From IMG/VR virus record IMGVR_UViG_3300027580_000008, positions 1-37,519 of that record: a stretch of DNA of 37,519 nucleotides; one strand, given 5' to 3'. Positions within the stretch are counted from its first letter, which is position 1. The number at the start of each line of letters is the position of its first letter. Below the pieces are notes generated by a model. The model made no database searches. It was not told the DNA's origin and was given only the letters and a program-made list of their open reading frames with translations. The position numbers were made by a program, and so were the translations under genes. Below, piece by piece: positions 7,632 through 30,911 of this stretch. This DNA comes from a virus.

Positions 7632-7696
7632 TTTAGTTCACCCCTTTATAGAAGCCGGGGCTATTAAACCCCGGCTATTATTAGTCTGTGGCTAGT

Positions 7697-8692
7697 TTAG
7701 CCGTTAGTTACGAGCTTTACGAGCCTGACGTTTTTAGGTTCGTAAACTCTGTCCCAGTTAGCTTCGTTTTCTAGTTCTGTGTTAGTTGGAAAGTCGCCTG
7801 AGACTGAACTTTCTTGCCAGGCTACTCCACGAGGATGTACGAGGAAGTTCCTACGGTGGATTAAATTAGTTTCGCCCCTGGTTCCGTTTCTTTCTGTTTC
7901 TACTGGAACTTTTGGGGTCCCTTCTCCGTATCCGACTGCTCCCTCCCCGAATATGTAACTGGTGTATTCGTATTCTGCGTTATCGGCTGAAGAATTATCC
8001 CGTGGAAGGCTGTCGTCTACGATTACGGTGTGGTTCATGTAAGTCCCGAACCCTACATCCTGCTCTGAATCAGGTATATAGTCGATTAGGTCGTTTTTCT
8101 GTAGCCTCGTGTGTAGCTCTGATCTCATAGCGATAGCTGTAAGCTCGCCTTTCTTGTCTCCGAGAAGCTGTTTTGCGTCTAGGATGTTCTGACCGGAGAT
8201 TAAGGCATCTTCTGTAAGGCTGTCAGCTCCAGAAATTGTTACGTCTAGGATGTGGTCCCCTGAGTCGTTTGAAGAATTGTCTGCGAAGACACCCTCGAGA
8301 CTTGCTATCAGTACGTCCTGGTATCTCCGTGCCCAGTATGCTGCTACACGTTCTGAGATAGCTCCGAGAGGGTCGTCCCCTGAAAGTTCGTCCGTGAGGT
8401 CCTCTGCTCCCCAAACGTTAGCACGTCCTTGAAGCCTTGCGATGTCTTTGCCTGTGCTTATGTTATTGGTGCTTAGTTCTGAGTCGCTAGAGCGAACCTG
8501 GTCATCCTGGTCAATATCTTTCCAGAATGGCATTTTCACCATTTCCCCCCCACCTTCTAACTTCTCGTCTAGTTCTGGATCCGTAGCTATAATGCCGCTC
8601 TGCCAAAGTGCAGAGACTTCTGGAAGTGTCTCCTGTACGTAGTTATTGAAGACCTCTGGTACGATTACGTCTGAAAGTAGCGTGGTAGCCAT
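7697..8692 (-). CDS. Major capsid protein (HK97 fold)
   Basis: The 331-residue protein follows the scaffold gene, as expected. It matches the HK97-fold coat family with an N-terminal LLSDVIVPEVFNNYVQE, MPFWKDI, a long central helix region with AAYWARRYQDVLIASLEGVF, then AIAMRSELHTRLQKNDL. The closing part HRRNFLVHPRGVAWQ is typical of Bacillota phage coats. It forms the capsid shell. GGAGTGATTTATT precedes the ATG. No protease gene is visible nearby, so maturation by an encoded protease is not supported. Confidence 0.9.
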   Translation of the reverse strand: MATTLLSDVIVPEVFNNYVQETLPEVSALWQSGIIATDPELDEKLEGGGEMVKMPFWKDIDQDDQVRSSDSELSTNNISTGKDIARLQGRANVWGAEDLTDELSGDDPLGAISERVAAYWARRYQDVLIASLEGVFADNSSNDSGDHILDVTISGADSLTEDALISGQNILDAKQLLGDKKGELTAIAMRSELHTRLQKNDLIDYIPDSEQDVGFGTYMNHTVIVDDSLPRDNSSADNAEYEYTSYIFGEGAVGYGEGTPKVPVETERNGTRGETNLIHRRNFLVHPRGVAWQESSVSGDFPTNTELENEANWDRVYEPKNVRLVKLVTNG

Positions 8693-13973: not shown

Positions 13974-15350
13974 TCACTCTCCACTTTGTGCGATTGTATT
14001 GTATAAGCCAATATCAAACAAACCGTTGATGACGTACCTGATTGCGTCCATGGCGTGATCGTCCTTCTTTTGGGGCTTGTCCTCGCCTCTCTGTTGAGCT
14101 TTTTCATCCCAAGCGTAATTGTAAAATTCGTCTATGACGTGTTCGCAGCTTTGGTGAACGAGTAGCTGGCCTGGCCCTATTAAGGCAGAAGTTCTTCTGA
14201 TTCCGTCCATGACTTCGTTATTCGCTGGTTCTGTAGCGTGTAGTTGCTTGGCCTTGGTAGTGTCTGCTCTTAAACGATTGATAAACGATAGACTTGAGGG
14301 GTCTACGAGTATATATTGGGGCTGTGCGTAAACTTGATCGATCCCGAGTATTTCTGCTACCTCCCTTAGGAAGTCTCTCATAGCTTTGCTATAATCTGAG
14401 TCCGTTAATTGCTCTGTATCTGGCGCTCCACCTTCGTGCCAGTATTCGTGGAAGACTACTAATTTATTTTCTTCCGTTATTCCTATTGCGATAAAAGTTG
14501 TGGGGTTACTCATACCGTAATCAACACCGACCCAAAACCTGCGAATTGATGGAATCTCTGCGATGATGTTCTTTTGTGTGAAGCTGCTATATATGGCGTT
14601 TTGGTTGGTTTCCCTCCAGGACCCTTCTAGTAGCTTTTCTTTTGTAACTTCGTCTAACTCTGAAAGCGACTTTTCGTATTCTTCCTTATCAATATGGGGG
14701 TTGTCTTCTAAGGTTGCTAGTATTGCTGGATTGTTCCCCTTTATAAAGCGTTCCCGTACCCAGTGGAAGCCCTCCCCGATAGGGTTGGAAGCCGACCTTT
14801 GCCTGAGAGGTACTGGGTTGCCTTTATTCTTCCTGAGTCTGGAAAACAAAAAGCGATATTGTTTTTCTGTAAATTCTGTAGCCTCGTCAAATCCTATAAA
14901 TTGGAACTCGGCTGTATTGTAATTGAAACGGTCGTCTTCGTAGTTCATGTGGCCGAAACTGAGTGTGGCCCCTGAGGGAAACGTCCACTTATGCTGGCTT
15001 CCGTTGTAATCTGCTGGTGTATGGTCAAGCCATTTCTTTGATCTTGGAATCAAAGATCCTTCCTTTTCTAAGTTGGGGTAGGTCCTGCGAAATAAAATTG
15101 CGTGGTAGTCTCCGTGGTCTACGTACATGAGGGCTGCCATAAGTAAAGCGTCTGTCTTCCCTGGACCTGCGGCCCCTCCGAAAAACACTTCCCGTTCTGG
15201 CCTGGCTAGGAAGGACCATTGCTTTTCGGTAGGGTAGTGCGGTATATATCTATTCGCTGCTATCCTCTGACCTATCCTGAGTTCCCTCGGGGTCAGATCC
15301 AGCTTCTCGAGCTTGCTGGATTCCTTCGAGGAAGGCTTCAGCTTGCTCAT
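13974..15350 (-). CDS. terL: Terminase large subunit
   Basis: The packaging motor ATPase and nuclease. Starting at ATG 15350 (GGAGG nine bases upstream) it has 458 residues. Walker A is GGAAGPGKTD (about 58-67), Walker B is FIGFDEATEFT. The C-terminal nuclease domain shows GVDYGMSNPTTF and the late KDDHAMDAIRYV acid motif. A TTG two codons earlier is too close to the ribosome site. The gene overlaps the small subunit by about 100 bases, longer than usual for this genome. The packaging type (cos or pac) cannot be told from the sequence. Confidence 0.95.
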   Translation of the reverse strand: MSKLKPSSKESSKLEKLDLTPRELRIGQRIAANRYIPHYPTEKQWSFLARPEREVFFGGAAGPGKTDALLMAALMYVDHGDYHAILFRRTYPNLEKEGSLIPRSKKWLDHTPADYNGSQHKWTFPSGATLSFGHMNYEDDRFNYNTAEFQFIGFDEATEFTEKQYRFLFSRLRKNKGNPVPLRQRSASNPIGEGFHWVRERFIKGNNPAILATLEDNPHIDKEEYEKSLSELDEVTKEKLLEGSWRETNQNAIYSSFTQKNIIAEIPSIRRFWVGVDYGMSNPTTFIAIGITEENKLVVFHEYWHEGGAPDTEQLTDSDYSKAMRDFLREVAEILGIDQVYAQPQYILVDPSSLSFINRLRADTTKAKQLHATEPANNEVMDGIRRTSALIGPGQLLVHQSCEHVIDEFYNYAWDEKAQQRGEDKPQKKDDHAMDAIRYVINGLFDIGLYNTIAQSGE

Positions 15351-15795
15351 GATCAATAGCCTCCGAGTTAGCTGCTGCGGCTGATCCCGCTTCTACGTCT
15401 ATGTCGATGTTAGCGGTATCATCTCTGGAAAGATTGGCAATAATACTTTTGAAGCTGCTATAAAACATCTTTTGCTCGTCTGTTAGTTCTTCCCCACTTA
15501 CAATATCGCGTACTATCTTATTAAGTTTTGGTAAATGATTCAGCACGAATCCGAGCGCCTTTGCTATTGCTGTATCTTTTCTGGCTTGAGTCCTTCCTGA
15601 GCGGAGTTTGACTAAACGCCTCCACTCTCTGTCGATCTTGTCTTTCTGTAGTAAATCGTATGCGTATTTGCTTGCGTTATCCCTATTCTTTGGGTCGTAC
15701 CCTGCGTCTAAGTATGCTTGAGCACCCGACTTTCCTTTTGCGTACTCTATACAAAATTTCTGTTGCCTGCTTGTAAGATCGTTGGTTCTACTCAT
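15250..15795 (-). CDS. terS: Terminase small subunit
   Basis: The 181-residue protein begins with the Terminase_2-type DNA-binding helix-turn-helix: LTSRQQKFCIEYAKGKSGAQ, then AYLDAGYDPKN. A central coiled region mediates ring assembly and an acidic tail (EAGSDPEGTQDRSEDSSE) contacts the large subunit. It recognises the packaging start on phage DNA. It overlaps the glycosyltransferase gene by eight bases and TerL by about 100. Confidence 0.92.
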   Translation of the reverse strand: MSRTNDLTSRQQKFCIEYAKGKSGAQAYLDAGYDPKNRDNASKYAYDLLQKDKIDREWRRLVKLRSGRTQARKDTAIAKALGFVLNHLPKLNKIVRDIVSGEELTDEQKMFYSSFKSIIANLSRDDTANIDIDVEAGSAAAANSEAIDHEQAEAFLEGIQQAREAGSDPEGTQDRSEDSSE

Positions 15796-21733: not shown

Positions 21734-21789
21734 GGCTGACCGACCCCGCCTGGAAGACTATTTTCAGTTTGTAAGTTTGAAGACCTCAT
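21730..21789 (-). CDS. Leader peptide, 19 residues
   Basis: A 20-codon frame starts with ATG at 21789 behind an ideal GGAGGTGAGACAAA site and stops exactly at the initiator start (ATGA). The peptide is MRSSNLQTENSLPGGVGQP. The coupling suggests translation of the initiator depends on this leader. The ribosome site lies in the loop of a 7-bp hairpin (21791-21797 with 21810-21816). Confidence 0.6.
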   Translation of the reverse strand: MRSSNLQTENSLPGGVGQP

Positions 21790-21820
21790 TTTGTCTCACC
21801 TCCGTGTGAGAGACAAGGCT

Positions 21821-21849
21821 ATTATACCTTGGATTCGGAGGGTTTTAAA
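21821..21849 (-). promoter_or_regulatory. Promoter of replication/late operon
   Basis: On the minus strand TATAAT (21821-21826) is preceded 17 bases upstream by TTTAAA (21844-21849), a weak -35 box with four of six matches. Transcription would start near 21814, just before the leader-peptide hairpin. The weak -35 fits a promoter needing an activator. Confidence 0.55.
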
Positions 21850-21860
21850 CACCTTTTGCG

Positions 21861-21889
21861 TTGATTGAAGGGCTGTCTTTCCGTATAAT
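21861..21889 (+). promoter_or_regulatory. Promoter of candidate small RNA
   Basis: TTGATT (21861-21866) and a perfect TATAAT (21884-21889) are separated by 17 bases on the plus strand. No plus-strand gene follows before the terminator at 21964-21986, so the product would be a short RNA. Confidence 0.5.
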
Positions 21890-21895
21890 GGGACC

Positions 21896-21992
21896 CGAGA
21901 GACCGTAGTCGACTTCTGTGAAGTATTAGTCTACCACAGTCTCACCTCCAATGTTTTAATAAAAGCCCCAGGTCCTTCCTGGGGCTTTTGCT
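21896..21992 (+). ncRNA. Candidate small RNA, about 95 nt
   Basis: The unit has its own promoter, a nested hairpin and a terminator. Hairpin arms are GAGAC/GTCTC (21899-21903 with 21939-21943), GTAG/CTAC inside it and ACTTC/GAAGT at the tip. The terminator stem is AGCCCCAGG/CCTGGGGCT with TTTTGCTTT behind it. It runs opposite the gap between the repressor operon and the late operon, much like the OOP RNA location in lambda. Either strand can fold, so a leader role for the minus strand is an alternative. Confidence 0.45.
21964..21986 (-). terminator. Bidirectional rho-independent terminator
   Basis: A 9-bp GC-rich stem (21964-21972 with 21978-21986, loop TCCTT) is flanked by T runs on both strands: TTTTATT on the minus side, TTTTGCTTT on the plus side. 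It ends the repressor operon that stops at 22090 and also the candidate small RNA. The 100 bases between the operon end and the stem hold no evident gene. Confidence 0.85.
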
Positions 21993-22644: not shown

Positions 22645-22871
22645 TTTCTGCCCTCCGTAGGATCCCCAGGTTCGCCCTCCCGGAAGGAAGGCCTGTCCGG
22701 TTCGTTATTTGGTACGAAATCTTTTAGTTTTATCTCTACAGTTCTGGACTTGATCAAGTCGCCTTCCTCGATGTATCTTATGCTCTCTATTTCTTCTTTG
22801 TGATTTTGTAGCCCCCGTAGAATTTTCTCTATTGAATCTGACTTAGTTGAAAAGCTCTTTTCTTTTCTCAT
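22641..22871 (-). CDS. Hypothetical protein of repressor operon, 76 residues
   Basis: The protein is short and charged, with a helical N-terminus (SDSIEKILRGLQNHKEEIES) and a strand SRTVEIKLKDFVPNNEP. The C-terminus is Pro/Gly/Glu-rich. It overlaps both neighbours by four bases (ATGA). It may modulate the adjacent repressor; no family was recognised. Confidence 0.6.
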   Translation of the reverse strand: MRKEKSFSTKSDSIEKILRGLQNHKEEIESIRYIEEGDLIKSRTVEIKLKDFVPNNEPDRPSFREGEPGDPTEGRK

Positions 22872-23071
22872 GAGAAGTCTTCCAGGAAGTCCTGGATCTT
22901 GATAAGACCCTCTACGTCTGGAAGCGAGTTATCGTGAATCCATTGATTGTATCTGGTCCTTTTGATCCCTACGCGTTGAGCGAACTCGCCTTGAGTCATC
23001 CCCAGTTTATCTCTGATTAATTCTAACTTATCGATCTTTTGCCTGAGTTTGTCTTTGGTTTTTTTGTCCAT
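22868..23071 (-). CDS. XRE-family repressor (CI/Cro-like)
   Basis: Starting at ATG 23071 (GAGGTGG site upstream; an earlier in-frame ATG would lie in the ribosome site) the protein has 67 residues. It is a bare HTH_3 domain: RDKLGMTQGEFAQRVGIKR then TRYNQWIHDNSLPDVEGLIK. The first gene leftward of the divergent control region, it is the best candidate for the switch repressor that binds the repeats at 23084-23214. It has no C-terminal multimerisation or cleavage domain, so control by RecA-induced self-cleavage is not expected. Confidence 0.85.
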   Translation of the reverse strand: MDKKTKDKLRQKIDKLELIRDKLGMTQGEFAQRVGIKRTRYNQWIHDNSLPDVEGLIKIQDFLEDFS

Positions 23072-23083
23072 ACTACCACCTCT

Positions 23084-23214
23084 CAACCCTGATTATATAA
23101 GCTAACGCCCCCTGTTGTCAAGGCTGTAACAGGGTTGGTTTTTATAATTTTGAACTGTATCGTGGAGATTCTAAAAGAAACGGGTGTTAGGGGCTTGACA
23201 TGGGTATGGGGTTG
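23084..23214. promoter_or_regulatory. Operator repeats between divergent promoters
   Basis: Two kinds of short repeat occur in the control region. CAACCCTG (23084-23091) is repeated inverted as CAGGGTTG (23130-23137), with a related GGGGTTG at 23208-23214. CTAACGCCC (23102-23110) is matched inverted by GGGTGTTAG (23182-23190), eight of nine bases. They lie at the repressor start site, in its spacer, upstream of its -35, upstream of the early -35 and in the early spacer. Occupancy could block either promoter. Which repeat binds which XRE protein is not known. Confidence 0.5.
23092..23121 (-). promoter_or_regulatory. Repressor promoter
   Basis: On the minus strand TTGACA (23116-23121) and TATAAT (23092-23097) are separated by 18 bases; both hexamers are perfect. 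Transcription should start near 23085, leaving a leader of about 14 bases before the repressor ATG at 23071. Confidence 0.8.
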
Positions 23215-23223
23215 TTATATAAT
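23195..23223 (+). promoter_or_regulatory. Early promoter, perfect consensus
   Basis: TTGACA (23195-23200) and TATAAT (23218-23223) are separated by exactly 17 bases. It faces away from the repressor promoter and drives the early block. Transcription should start near 23230. Confidence 0.9.
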
Positions 23224-23229
23224 AATGTT

Positions 23230-23462
23230 GAAGAAAAGGACGGAAGAAAACAAAAGATCTTTGAGAGACCGAACAAAAGACGAAAGCGAGCGGGGGTCGA
23301 AATCCCTCCCGGTCTGCACAAAGGACCATGCGGGAAAGTCCCTACAAGGGGTCTGAGCAGGCCAAAGAAATATAGCACAAGGCTAGGGGTCAGGGCGGAG
23401 ATGCCCTGGTTCCCTGGACTGGTTCTATATTTCACCCCTAAATCTACCAGGAGGTTTTTAAA
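23230..23462 (+). ncRNA. Structured pseudoknotted early leader RNA
   Basis: About 230 untranslated bases separate the early promoter from the first gene. 5' part: a GGGGGT/ATCCCT hairpin with loop CGAA (23292-23297 with 23302-23307). Middle: GGTCTGC with GCAGGCC (23311-23317 with 23357-23363), enclosing GGACC/GGTCT (23323-23327 with 23350-23354) and GGGA/TCCC (23332-23335 with 23339-23342). 3' part: GAAATATAG with CTATATTTC (23367-23375 with 23425-23433) crossed by TAGGGGT with ACCCCTA (23384-23390 with 23434-23440). The result is an H-type pseudoknot with the two 3' strands directly adjacent; a CAGGGC/GCCCTG hairpin (23391-23396 with 23403-23408) sits in its loop. The ribosome site of the first gene follows within 15 bases. 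No known family was recognised. Confidence 0.6.
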
Positions 23463-23642
23463 ATGACCGAAGCTACTACAGAAATGACTGAGACTGAACG
23501 CCTTGCGGATCTTGCTCAAGCTCTCACGGAGGAAGCAAACAGAGAGTTTGCCACTAATTGTCTTGATTGGCTTAACAGTAAAGACGAGGAAGAACGGGAA
23601 GAAAAGCTTAGTAATCTCGAAGACGAAATGGGGCTTTTATAA
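23463..23642 (+). CDS. Small acidic protein, 59 residues
   Basis: The first gene of the early block, with CCAGGAGG upstream and the structured leader in front. It is almost entirely helical and acidic (TERLADLAQALTEEANREF, then EEEREEKLSNLEDEMG), with one Cys. No family was recognised. First early genes often encode host-takeover factors; that is inference from position. Confidence 0.65.
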   Translation: MTEATTEMTETERLADLAQALTEEANREFATNCLDWLNSKDEEEREEKLSNLEDEMGLL

Positions 23643-25483: not shown

Positions 25484-25490
25484 TAGTTCC

Positions 25491-25559
25491 CTGTATTTGT
25501 TAAATACAGGTATAGATACTGGTAGAAACGGGGGCCGGGAGGGGGCTTTCCCCTCCCGG
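25491..25559 (+). terminator. Two hairpins, possible early terminator
   Basis: The gap after the 84-residue gene holds CTGTATTT/AAATACAG (25491-25498 with 25502-25509) and a strong CCGGGAGGGG/CCCCTCCCGG (25535-25544 with 25550-25559, loop GCTTT). The T run after the second is poor (GCTTTCTGCTT), so it may only weaken transcription. Confidence 0.45.
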
Positions 25560-25570
25560 ATGCTTTCTGC

Positions 25571-25599
25571 TTGATCCCTCGTTATATTATTGTTATTAT
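25571..25599 (+). promoter_or_regulatory. Possible second early promoter
   Basis: TTGATC (25571-25576) and TATTAT (25594-25599) with 17-base spacing lie just after the hairpins and before the next gene. The area is AT-rich and contains the imperfect palindrome GTTAT...ATAAC, possibly an operator. Confidence 0.4.
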
Positions 25600-25619
25600 A
25601 TGATAACGGAGGTTAAAAT

Positions 25620-25778
25620 ATGAAAACGACAGAAACTGAGTGCCCGAGATGCGGAGCTAAGATAAGACCGATTAAACCTTTTAGTTTGAAGCTATTCGTA
25701 TTTACTGGGGGGCTTTATATCTTTTATTGGCTTATGAAAGCCCCGAAATGTCCGGTATGCGAATACGAATTTAAGTAA
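25620..25778 (+). CDS. Zinc-ribbon protein with membrane segment
   Basis: A 52-residue frame with ACGGAGG upstream. CPRCGAKI near the start and CPVCEYEF near the end flank one hydrophobic stretch (LKLFVFTGGLYIFYWLM). Two metal-binding pairs around a membrane hairpin recall small membrane-associated zinc proteins. Function unknown. Confidence 0.65.
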   Translation: MKTTETECPRCGAKIRPIKPFSLKLFVFTGGLYIFYWLMKAPKCPVCEYEFK

Positions 25779-27982: not shown

Positions 27983-28015
27983 AAGCCCCAGGGTTGAAGT
28001 CCCTGGGGCTTATTG
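27983..28015 (+). terminator. Rho-independent terminator
   Basis: An 11-bp stem (27983-27993 AAGCCCCAGGG with 28001-28011) and loop TTGAAGT, followed by TATTGTTATTATT. It separates the ATPase group from the XRE/RecT group. The inner AGCCCCAGG stem is the same as in the terminator at 21964-21986. Confidence 0.85.
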
Positions 28016-29409: not shown

Positions 29410-30216
29410 ATGCGATATTTAGTTGTGGGTTTTGGTACTGTTGGACAGGCCTGGGCCGGAGCTTTGAAAGCCTGGGGCCATGACGTTGGGGTTTATGATC
29501 CTGAAAAGGACCTCGAACCTTCTTCGTGGAGGTTCGAGGGGGCTTTTGTTTGTGTCCCTACGCCTACTAAAAGGAAGACATACTCAAATCAGTTTTACCA
29601 GGAAGGTTCCTATGTTATGGAAGCTTTGGAATATATTGATAATAAAGAAATACAACATAGCTCTGTAATCCCTTGGATCTCTATACGGTCTACTGTTAAC
29701 CCGAATGCAGAGAGTGTTATTAGGAATAGAATTAGCGAAGGCCAGGACCTTATAGCTGACCCTGAGTTCTTACGTGAGCGGTATGCTGATTACGAAGCCA
29801 GTCACCCACGATTACTGGTAGTTGGCGGTGATAGGGGCAAAGAATATATTAACGAAGTTTATCCAGATTCTTTATCTGCTCCCGTTTGGGTAGCTGGATC
29901 TTTCCGGGAAGCGTTTTGGGCTAAGTATGCTCTTAATTTCTTGTTTTCTTTGAAAGTTATTTACGCTAACGAAGCCGATAAATTGCGAGACCTTTTGACG
30001 GAGGATCCCGAGATAAATTTGGCTGAGTTTTTAAATACTGCTGATCAGTTATTTGCCGGAAGACATATGGACCCTGATCATGGAGATAAGCCTGGTTATG
30101 GCGGTAAGTGCCTTCCTAAGGATACGAAGCTTTGGTACGGTAGGGGGCTTGAGTTACTTGATAGGATGGTCGAAATTAACGGTCGGTTACGAGATTGGCC
30201 AGAATTTTCTGATTAA
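29410..30216 (+). CDS. Shortened UDP-glucose/GDP-mannose dehydrogenase-like protein
   Basis: The 268-residue protein has a Rossmann start VVGFGTVGQAWAGALKAWGH, then VCVPTPT, IRSTVNPN, ADPEFLRER, a central AKYALNFLFSLKVIYANE helix, and GYGGKCLPKDTK with the catalytic Cys (Cys234). This matches the NAD-dependent nucleotide-sugar dehydrogenases that oxidise UDP-glucose to UDP-glucuronate. It ends soon after that motif and lacks the C-terminal UDP-binding domain; normal size is about 400-450 residues. It may be a minimal enzyme or an altered one. Paired with the glycosyltransferase at 15788-16678 it could supply a sugar donor; this is inference. CAGGAGGTTCT precedes the ATG. Confidence 0.82.
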   Translation: MRYLVVGFGTVGQAWAGALKAWGHDVGVYDPEKDLEPSSWRFEGAFVCVPTPTKRKTYSNQFYQEGSYVMEALEYIDNKEIQHSSVIPWISIRSTVNPNAESVIRNRISEGQDLIADPEFLRERYADYEASHPRLLVVGGDRGKEYINEVYPDSLSAPVWVAGSFREAFWAKYALNFLFSLKVIYANEADKLRDLLTEDPEINLAEFLNTADQLFAGRHMDPDHGDKPGYGGKCLPKDTKLWYGRGLELLDRMVEINGRLRDWPEFSD

Positions 30217-30869: not shown

Positions 30870-30876
30870 ACCTACG

Positions 30877-30911
30877 GGTCAGAGGGTTGCTCCCCTCTGG
30901 CCTGTTTTGTA
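30877..30911 (+). terminator. Rho-independent terminator
   Basis: GGTCAGAGGG (30877-30886) pairs with CCCTCTGGCC (30893-30902), loop TTGCTC, followed by TGTTTTGTA. It lies before the MBL-fold gene and probably ends the RecT to exported-protein transcript in part. Confidence 0.7.

Follow-up and report, generated by a model that had tools for sequence, protein, structure and literature searches.

What is the role of the long leader that separates a perfect promoter from the first gene of a rightward phage operon? The question arises in a 37,519-base virus record (IMGVR_UViG_3300027580_000008), which was analysed in full and is denoted the window below. Among the leftward genes of this virus are those for terminase, portal, tape measure and a DnaD-like helicase loader. 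The rightward operon, which a short helix-turn-helix repressor gene faces from the minus strand, carries SMC/Rad50-like, RecT and MBL-fold genes. The same SMC-RecT-metallohydrolase set is found in phages AP45, NF5 and MPV1, and therefore it is a fair inference that the rightward operon is the early operon. For the terminase large subunit (13974-15356), the nearest phage records are those of Methanothermobacter phages psiM100, psiM2 and PhiF3, with about 39-45% identity; despite this affinity, the promoters and the RecT module look bacterial. The features relevant to the leader and the operon are:

22868-23071, minus strand, short helix-turn-helix repressor gene
23195-23223, plus strand, early promoter TTGACA-17-TATAAT, sigma-70-type consensus match 12/12
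23255-23278, plus strand, boxA-like element AGATCTTTGAGAGACCGAACAAAA, at about +26 from the predicted transcription start
23266-23315, plus strand, helix A, AGACCG/CGGTCT, 6 bp, chance level, predicted probability at most 0.03
23311-23363, plus strand, predicted hairpin B, 53 nt, three nested helices, -21.2 kcal/mol, z -2.2
23367-23433, plus strand, predicted hairpin C, 67 nt, 27 bp, GAGA tetraloop, -34.6 kcal/mol, z -5.9
23384-23390 / 23434-23440, plus strand, helix D, TAGGGGT/ACCCCTA, 7 bp, predicted probability 0.00
23449-23454, plus strand, Shine-Dalgarno sequence AGGAGG of the first gene
23463-23642, plus strand, first gene, 59 aa, acidic product with two predicted helices, gene-like codon log-odds of 0.228
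25535-25559, plus strand, GC-rich intergenic hairpin from the terminator scan, no clear U tract
27985-28009, plus strand, predicted operon-internal intrinsic terminator, d 27.2, 5 nt past a stop codon and ~35 nt before the next start codon
30875-30904, plus strand, predicted operon-internal intrinsic terminator, d 31.3, ~5 nt past a stop codon and just before the next Shine-Dalgarno sequence

The early promoter is the only 12/12 match in the plus direction and, judging from its position, transcription would start at about 23230, giving a leader of 233 bases up to the ATG at 23463. The perfect early promoter and the roughly 230 untranslated bases that an earlier note on this DNA had described are both borne out; by codon usage, the leader frames are not gene-like. 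The possibility that the leader encodes a protein draws on an 88-codon open frame (23200-23466) that runs through it and ends with ATGA across the start codon of the first gene. However, the codon log-odds of this frame is -0.055 per codon, compared with 0.137 ± 0.074 for real genes (taken as 234-base pieces) and -0.106 ± 0.070 for wrong frames; no early start codon with a plausible ribosome site was found in the leader transcript; and the minus-strand frame across the leader is equally open. We read the leader as non-coding and consider a coding role hardly credible. Two short frames within the leader, 23328-23375 (15 codons, whose stop is the TAG in the 9-bp arm discussed below) and 23401-23466 (21 codons, ending with ATGA over the first start codon), have no good ribosome site. 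A second perfect (12/12) sigma-70 promoter lies in the divergent orientation at 23121-23092, the divergent pair spanning 23092-23223; the sequence CCCTGTTGTCAAGGCTGTAACAGGG, at 23110-23134, overlies this left promoter and may be a repressor operator.

Two hairpins, B and C, separated by 3 nt (AAA), are predicted in the leader. Hairpin B, the nested three-helix hairpin of the earlier note, proved real: its energy compares with -15.2 ± 2.7 kcal/mol in shuffles, and its predicted probability in the partition function of the whole leader is 0.89-0.99. Hairpin C, which has a predicted probability of approximately 1.00 in the same calculation, consists of 9 bp at the base, two 2-bp steps with 1x1 mismatches between, and two 7-bp blocks. 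The shuffles of its sequence average -18.1 ± 2.8 kcal/mol, with 0 of 200 matching the native energy. Across the entire window, only four inverted repeats of at least 12 bases have arms no more than 60 bases apart, hairpin C being one. On the opposite strand, this hairpin is weaker (-27.7 kcal/mol) because its G-U pairs turn into mismatches there, and the better fold on the plus strand fits a function of the plus-strand RNA. Together, the two hairpins (23311-23440) reach -59.0 kcal/mol (z -4.7; 0 of 200 shuffles) and form a compact predicted unit of 123 nt (23311-23433), in support of the structured leader RNA that had been proposed at the head of the early operon. The z-score of the whole leader (MFE -74.0 kcal/mol) is only -1.7 because the first 80 bases are unstructured. 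A second very stable intergenic structure of the early operon, at 25484-25620 (27 bp, -34.5 kcal/mol, without a U tract), sits 28 nt before a ribosome site.

This architecture is, according to the folding models, a tandem of two hairpins and not a pseudoknot. The earlier note had described a pseudoknotted leader, with a 9-bp helix crossed by a 7-bp helix, and two exclusive folds at the ribosome site. The strings behind both proposals are present, each occurring once in the leader: the 9-bp arms GAAATATAG (23367-23375) and CTATATTTC (23425-23433), TAGGGGT and ACCCCTA of helix D, and CCTGGT (23405-23410) and ACCAGG (23446-23451). However, the 9 bp form the base of the 27-bp hairpin C, and the crossing helix D, which takes bases used in the middle of this hairpin (23384-23389), is not predicted to form. 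The partition-function model excludes pseudoknots, and the states were therefore compared directly by energy: -36.1 for the full hairpin and, in the pseudoknot state, -19.3 for C plus tip and about -8 to -10 for the helix D duplex. As the main fold, the pseudoknot was rejected on these energies, which leave it clearly less stable than the full hairpin with no pseudoknot penalty yet applied. Crossing perfect helices of 9 and 7 bp arose in 47 of 2000 dinucleotide shuffles (2.4%), and in 5 (0.25%) their 3' strands were also adjacent. At the ribosome site, the pairing of ACCAGG with CCTGGT has a predicted probability of 0.00 in the whole leader. The leader contains seven Watson-Crick helices of at least 6 bp, compared with a simple expectation of about six to seven, so that perfect 6-bp matches such as this one are at the chance level. 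Pairing of ACCCC with the ribosome site has a predicted probability of 0.1-0.55, varying with the length folded.

What would such a leader do for the operon? Terminators were scored with a d'Aubenton-Carafa-type d score. Only three strong sites were detected in the window, of which two, 27985-28009 and 30875-30904, are internal to the operon; in shuffles of the early region, d of at least 20 was reached in 0 of 40. The other plus-strand promoter-like sites in the operon are all 9/12 matches, present at the frequency seen in shuffles; one of these, with a TG, overlaps the 27985 terminator, which is a caveat for read-through. Given the predicted terminators inside the operon and no strong promoter beyond them, the operon, with its RecT and MBL genes, would need read-through if the terminators work. 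Intrinsic terminators within an operon are a good indication of processive antitermination according to the pLS20 group (PMC8955417). Hairpin C itself has no U tract and is not a terminator, and the d-score scan found no terminator directly after the leader. The third strong site, 21965-21985, is an intrinsic terminator that scores in both directions (d 34.5/33.5) and closes the leftward repressor operon; beyond it, 21734-21960 is highly structured (z -4.4 for a 356-nt region), and a minus-strand promoter-like site is present at 21849-21821. Directly behind the 331-aa gene 7697-8692, a minus-strand terminator-like hairpin (7654-7675, d 16.5) may act as a partial terminator within the late operon.

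We tentatively read the leader as a cis-acting antitermination element of the rightward early operon, with a probability of about 0.45. The reasons are the tandem hairpins (z -4.7), favoured on the transcribed strand and located directly behind a 12/12 promoter; the two strong internal terminators, each immediately following a stop codon and lying tens of bases ahead of the next gene; the lack of a U tract in hairpin C, a boxA-like site (p about 0.01) and a layout resembling that of the lambda N leader; and the precedents of put RNA (PMC9378689) and of conAn and canT (PMC8955417, PMC11658703). Among the three functions offered in the earlier note, cis antitermination alone gained independent support, from the two operon-internal terminators. 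Under the antitermination reading, RNA polymerase would start at about 23230 and transcribe a largely unpaired, A-rich 5' segment, which may hold a boxA-type site for host Nus factors, followed by hairpins B and C with AAA between them. Once folded, this nascent RNA would remain associated with the elongation complex, either by itself or assisted by an early phage protein or host Nus factors, and the complex so modified would resist both internal terminators. The genes behind the terminators, including those for RecT and the MBL-fold hydrolase, would then be expressed only from transcripts begun at the 23195-23223 promoter.

The layout of the leader is closest to that of the lambda N leader, and the likeness is one of layout only. 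We take the latter to span 222 nt from PL to the start of the 107-aa N, which is not annotated in the record; a longer N is, and so is nutL. Over this span, its MFE is -74.3 kcal/mol, compared with -74.0 kcal/mol for the 233 nt here. The lambda leader carries nutL in its first third, where the weak boxA-like site of the present leader, near +26, would also fall; in both leaders, the long hairpin ends about 15 nt before the ribosome site, and in both operons the first gene is small. Unlike in lambda, there is no boxB-like hairpin with a known partner in the leader, and whereas lambda N is arginine-rich, the first protein here is acidic and not N-like. No sequence similarity was found between the two leaders. 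The first protein had no match above noise in Pfam, PHROG or PDB and none among plasmids at E up to 10; its AF2 model, built from a single sequence, has a mean pLDDT of 82. The first two proteins of the operon are both acidic, and neither matches a family.

EAR, found in the Bacillus eps operon, is a cis antitermination RNA of Firmicutes; its covariance model, presumably included in the Rfam library that we scanned, gave no match to the leader at E up to 10. The HK022 put RNA, a pair of stem-loops that together measure about 70 nt and lie close to PL, acts without a protein in an operon that has terminators (PMC9378689). The leader resembles put in having two adjacent stem-loops near the early promoter, but the pair here measures 123 nt. 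A single-sequence model of the leader found no match in the HK022 region, where the put boundaries are unannotated. In Gram-positive mobile elements, the RNAs conAn (pLS20) and canT (Tn916) are found close to where a long operon begins, and that operon contains internal terminators (PMC8955417, PMC11658703), a setting comparable to the operon here with its two strong terminators. In pLS20, the most structured stretch falls after the first gene, and we took this stretch to be conAn2. Neither by sequence nor by model was a match between conAn and the leader found, and ConAn1 is unlike the first protein, whose score against the first operon protein of pLS20 was reached by 207 of 500 shuffles.

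The boxA-like element at 23255-23278 resembles TTCTTTGAAAACT(G/A)AAC(G)AACAAAA, the rRNA-leader boxA of Bacillus and Cytobacillus. In one Cytobacillus contig, this boxA lies ~107 bases upstream of the 16S rRNA, and in both Bacillus-type genomes the boxA-type matches are often near contig ends, as for rRNA operons in draft assemblies. The summed boxA alignment score was reached by 1.4% of the leader shuffles and by 0.6% for the first 80 bases. Two other positions in the window outscore the element, the window has 22 copies of the core TCTTTGA by itself, and we treat 23255-23278 as a lead at most.

In blastn searches of phages and plasmids, the leader had no match, and the Rfam scan at E up to 10 returned only PhotoRC-I, irrelevant and on the minus strand, with no riboswitch above the gathering threshold. 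No relatives of the leader were detected across phages, plasmids, some 200 IMG/VR and genome loci, and about 400 bacterial genomes (two phylum draws of 398 genomes each, overlapping almost fully). The pseudoknot-arm pattern had no match in IMG/VR, and the exact 16-mer from the B/C junction had 74 chance matches there, none with the fold (best E 0.36). The IMG/VR loci reached through the SMC/Rad50-like, terminase, RecT and first-gene proteins, as well as the profile searches with terminase and RecT, yielded only distant phages, none with the leader. One IMG/VR fragment encodes a terminase 100% identical over 201 residues and ends short of the leader. A single-sequence model is insensitive, and therefore the absence of matches does not show that relatives are absent.

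Several observations count against antitermination, namely, the lack of a leader homologue and of similarity to put, EAR or conAn, the whole-leader z-score, the weak boxA likeness, and the presence of a long hairpin upstream of ~6% of the ribosome sites tested in other loci, in a survey that did not control for GC content. Weak internal promoters, or terminators that are themselves weak, could also account for read-through. The main rival is a leader that controls processing or translation, in the manner of the RNase III portion of the lambda N leader: hairpin C would be cut by RNase III or opened, and the freed UAGGGGU would pair with ACCCCUA, unmasking the Shine-Dalgarno sequence of the 59-aa gene. 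The position of the 27-bp stem, 15 nt before that sequence, is the same as in lambda, and a fraction of the predicted ensemble has ACCCC paired with the ribosome site. However, the competing pairings are short and at the chance level, and this explanation leaves the operon-internal terminators unaccounted for. We regard it as unlikely, although it carries real weight, and such control could coexist with antitermination, as it does in lambda.

Improbable, too, is an ordinary structured 5' UTR, in which the hairpins would only stabilise the mRNA or set the level of translation, without a regulatory partner. Strong hairpins are indeed present in several intergenic places of this genome, and no conservation of the leader is known, but tandem hairpins with z -4.7 lie right behind the strongest promoter, and the leader is 233 nt long, compared with about 140-150 bp between the genes in the divergent early regions of NF5 and AP45, phages with a related module. 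The compactness of the folded unit would suit a stable small RNA, processed from the leader, accumulating separately and acting in trans; with no terminator following the unit and no target or relative known, we give this little credence. A ligand-binding riboswitch or pseudoknot switch could make use of helix A and hairpin B, which are mutually exclusive, 23311-23315 being common to both. Such a switch is very unlikely in view of the Rfam scan, with no relevant match at E up to 10, and of the alternative helices, which are at the chance level with probabilities of at most 0.03.

To our knowledge, few RNAs alter RNA polymerase in cis (put, EAR, conAn2 and canT). If the antitermination reading is correct, the leader would be one more cis antitermination RNA and would suggest that this strategy extends more widely among phages outside the enterobacteria. 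The case rests on one sequence, and its value is that of a testable lead. A bolder version, which we consider doubtful, is that the two tandem hairpins, 123 nt in all, represent a new class of protein-independent antitermination RNA, unrelated to put, EAR, conAn2 and canT, and used by phages whose bacterial lineage is sparsely sampled and perhaps halophilic.

Two other predicted proteins point to possible sugar modification by the phage: the product of 15788-16678 matches a beta-glucosyl-HMC-alpha-glucosyltransferase PHROG, and that of 29410-30216 is UDP-glucose/GDP-mannose dehydrogenase-like. Across the window, cysteine is scarce (0.4%) and D/E abundant in the predicted proteins, and the preferred codons are ATA for Ile and AGA/AGG for Arg, a combination that may hint at a halophilic host.
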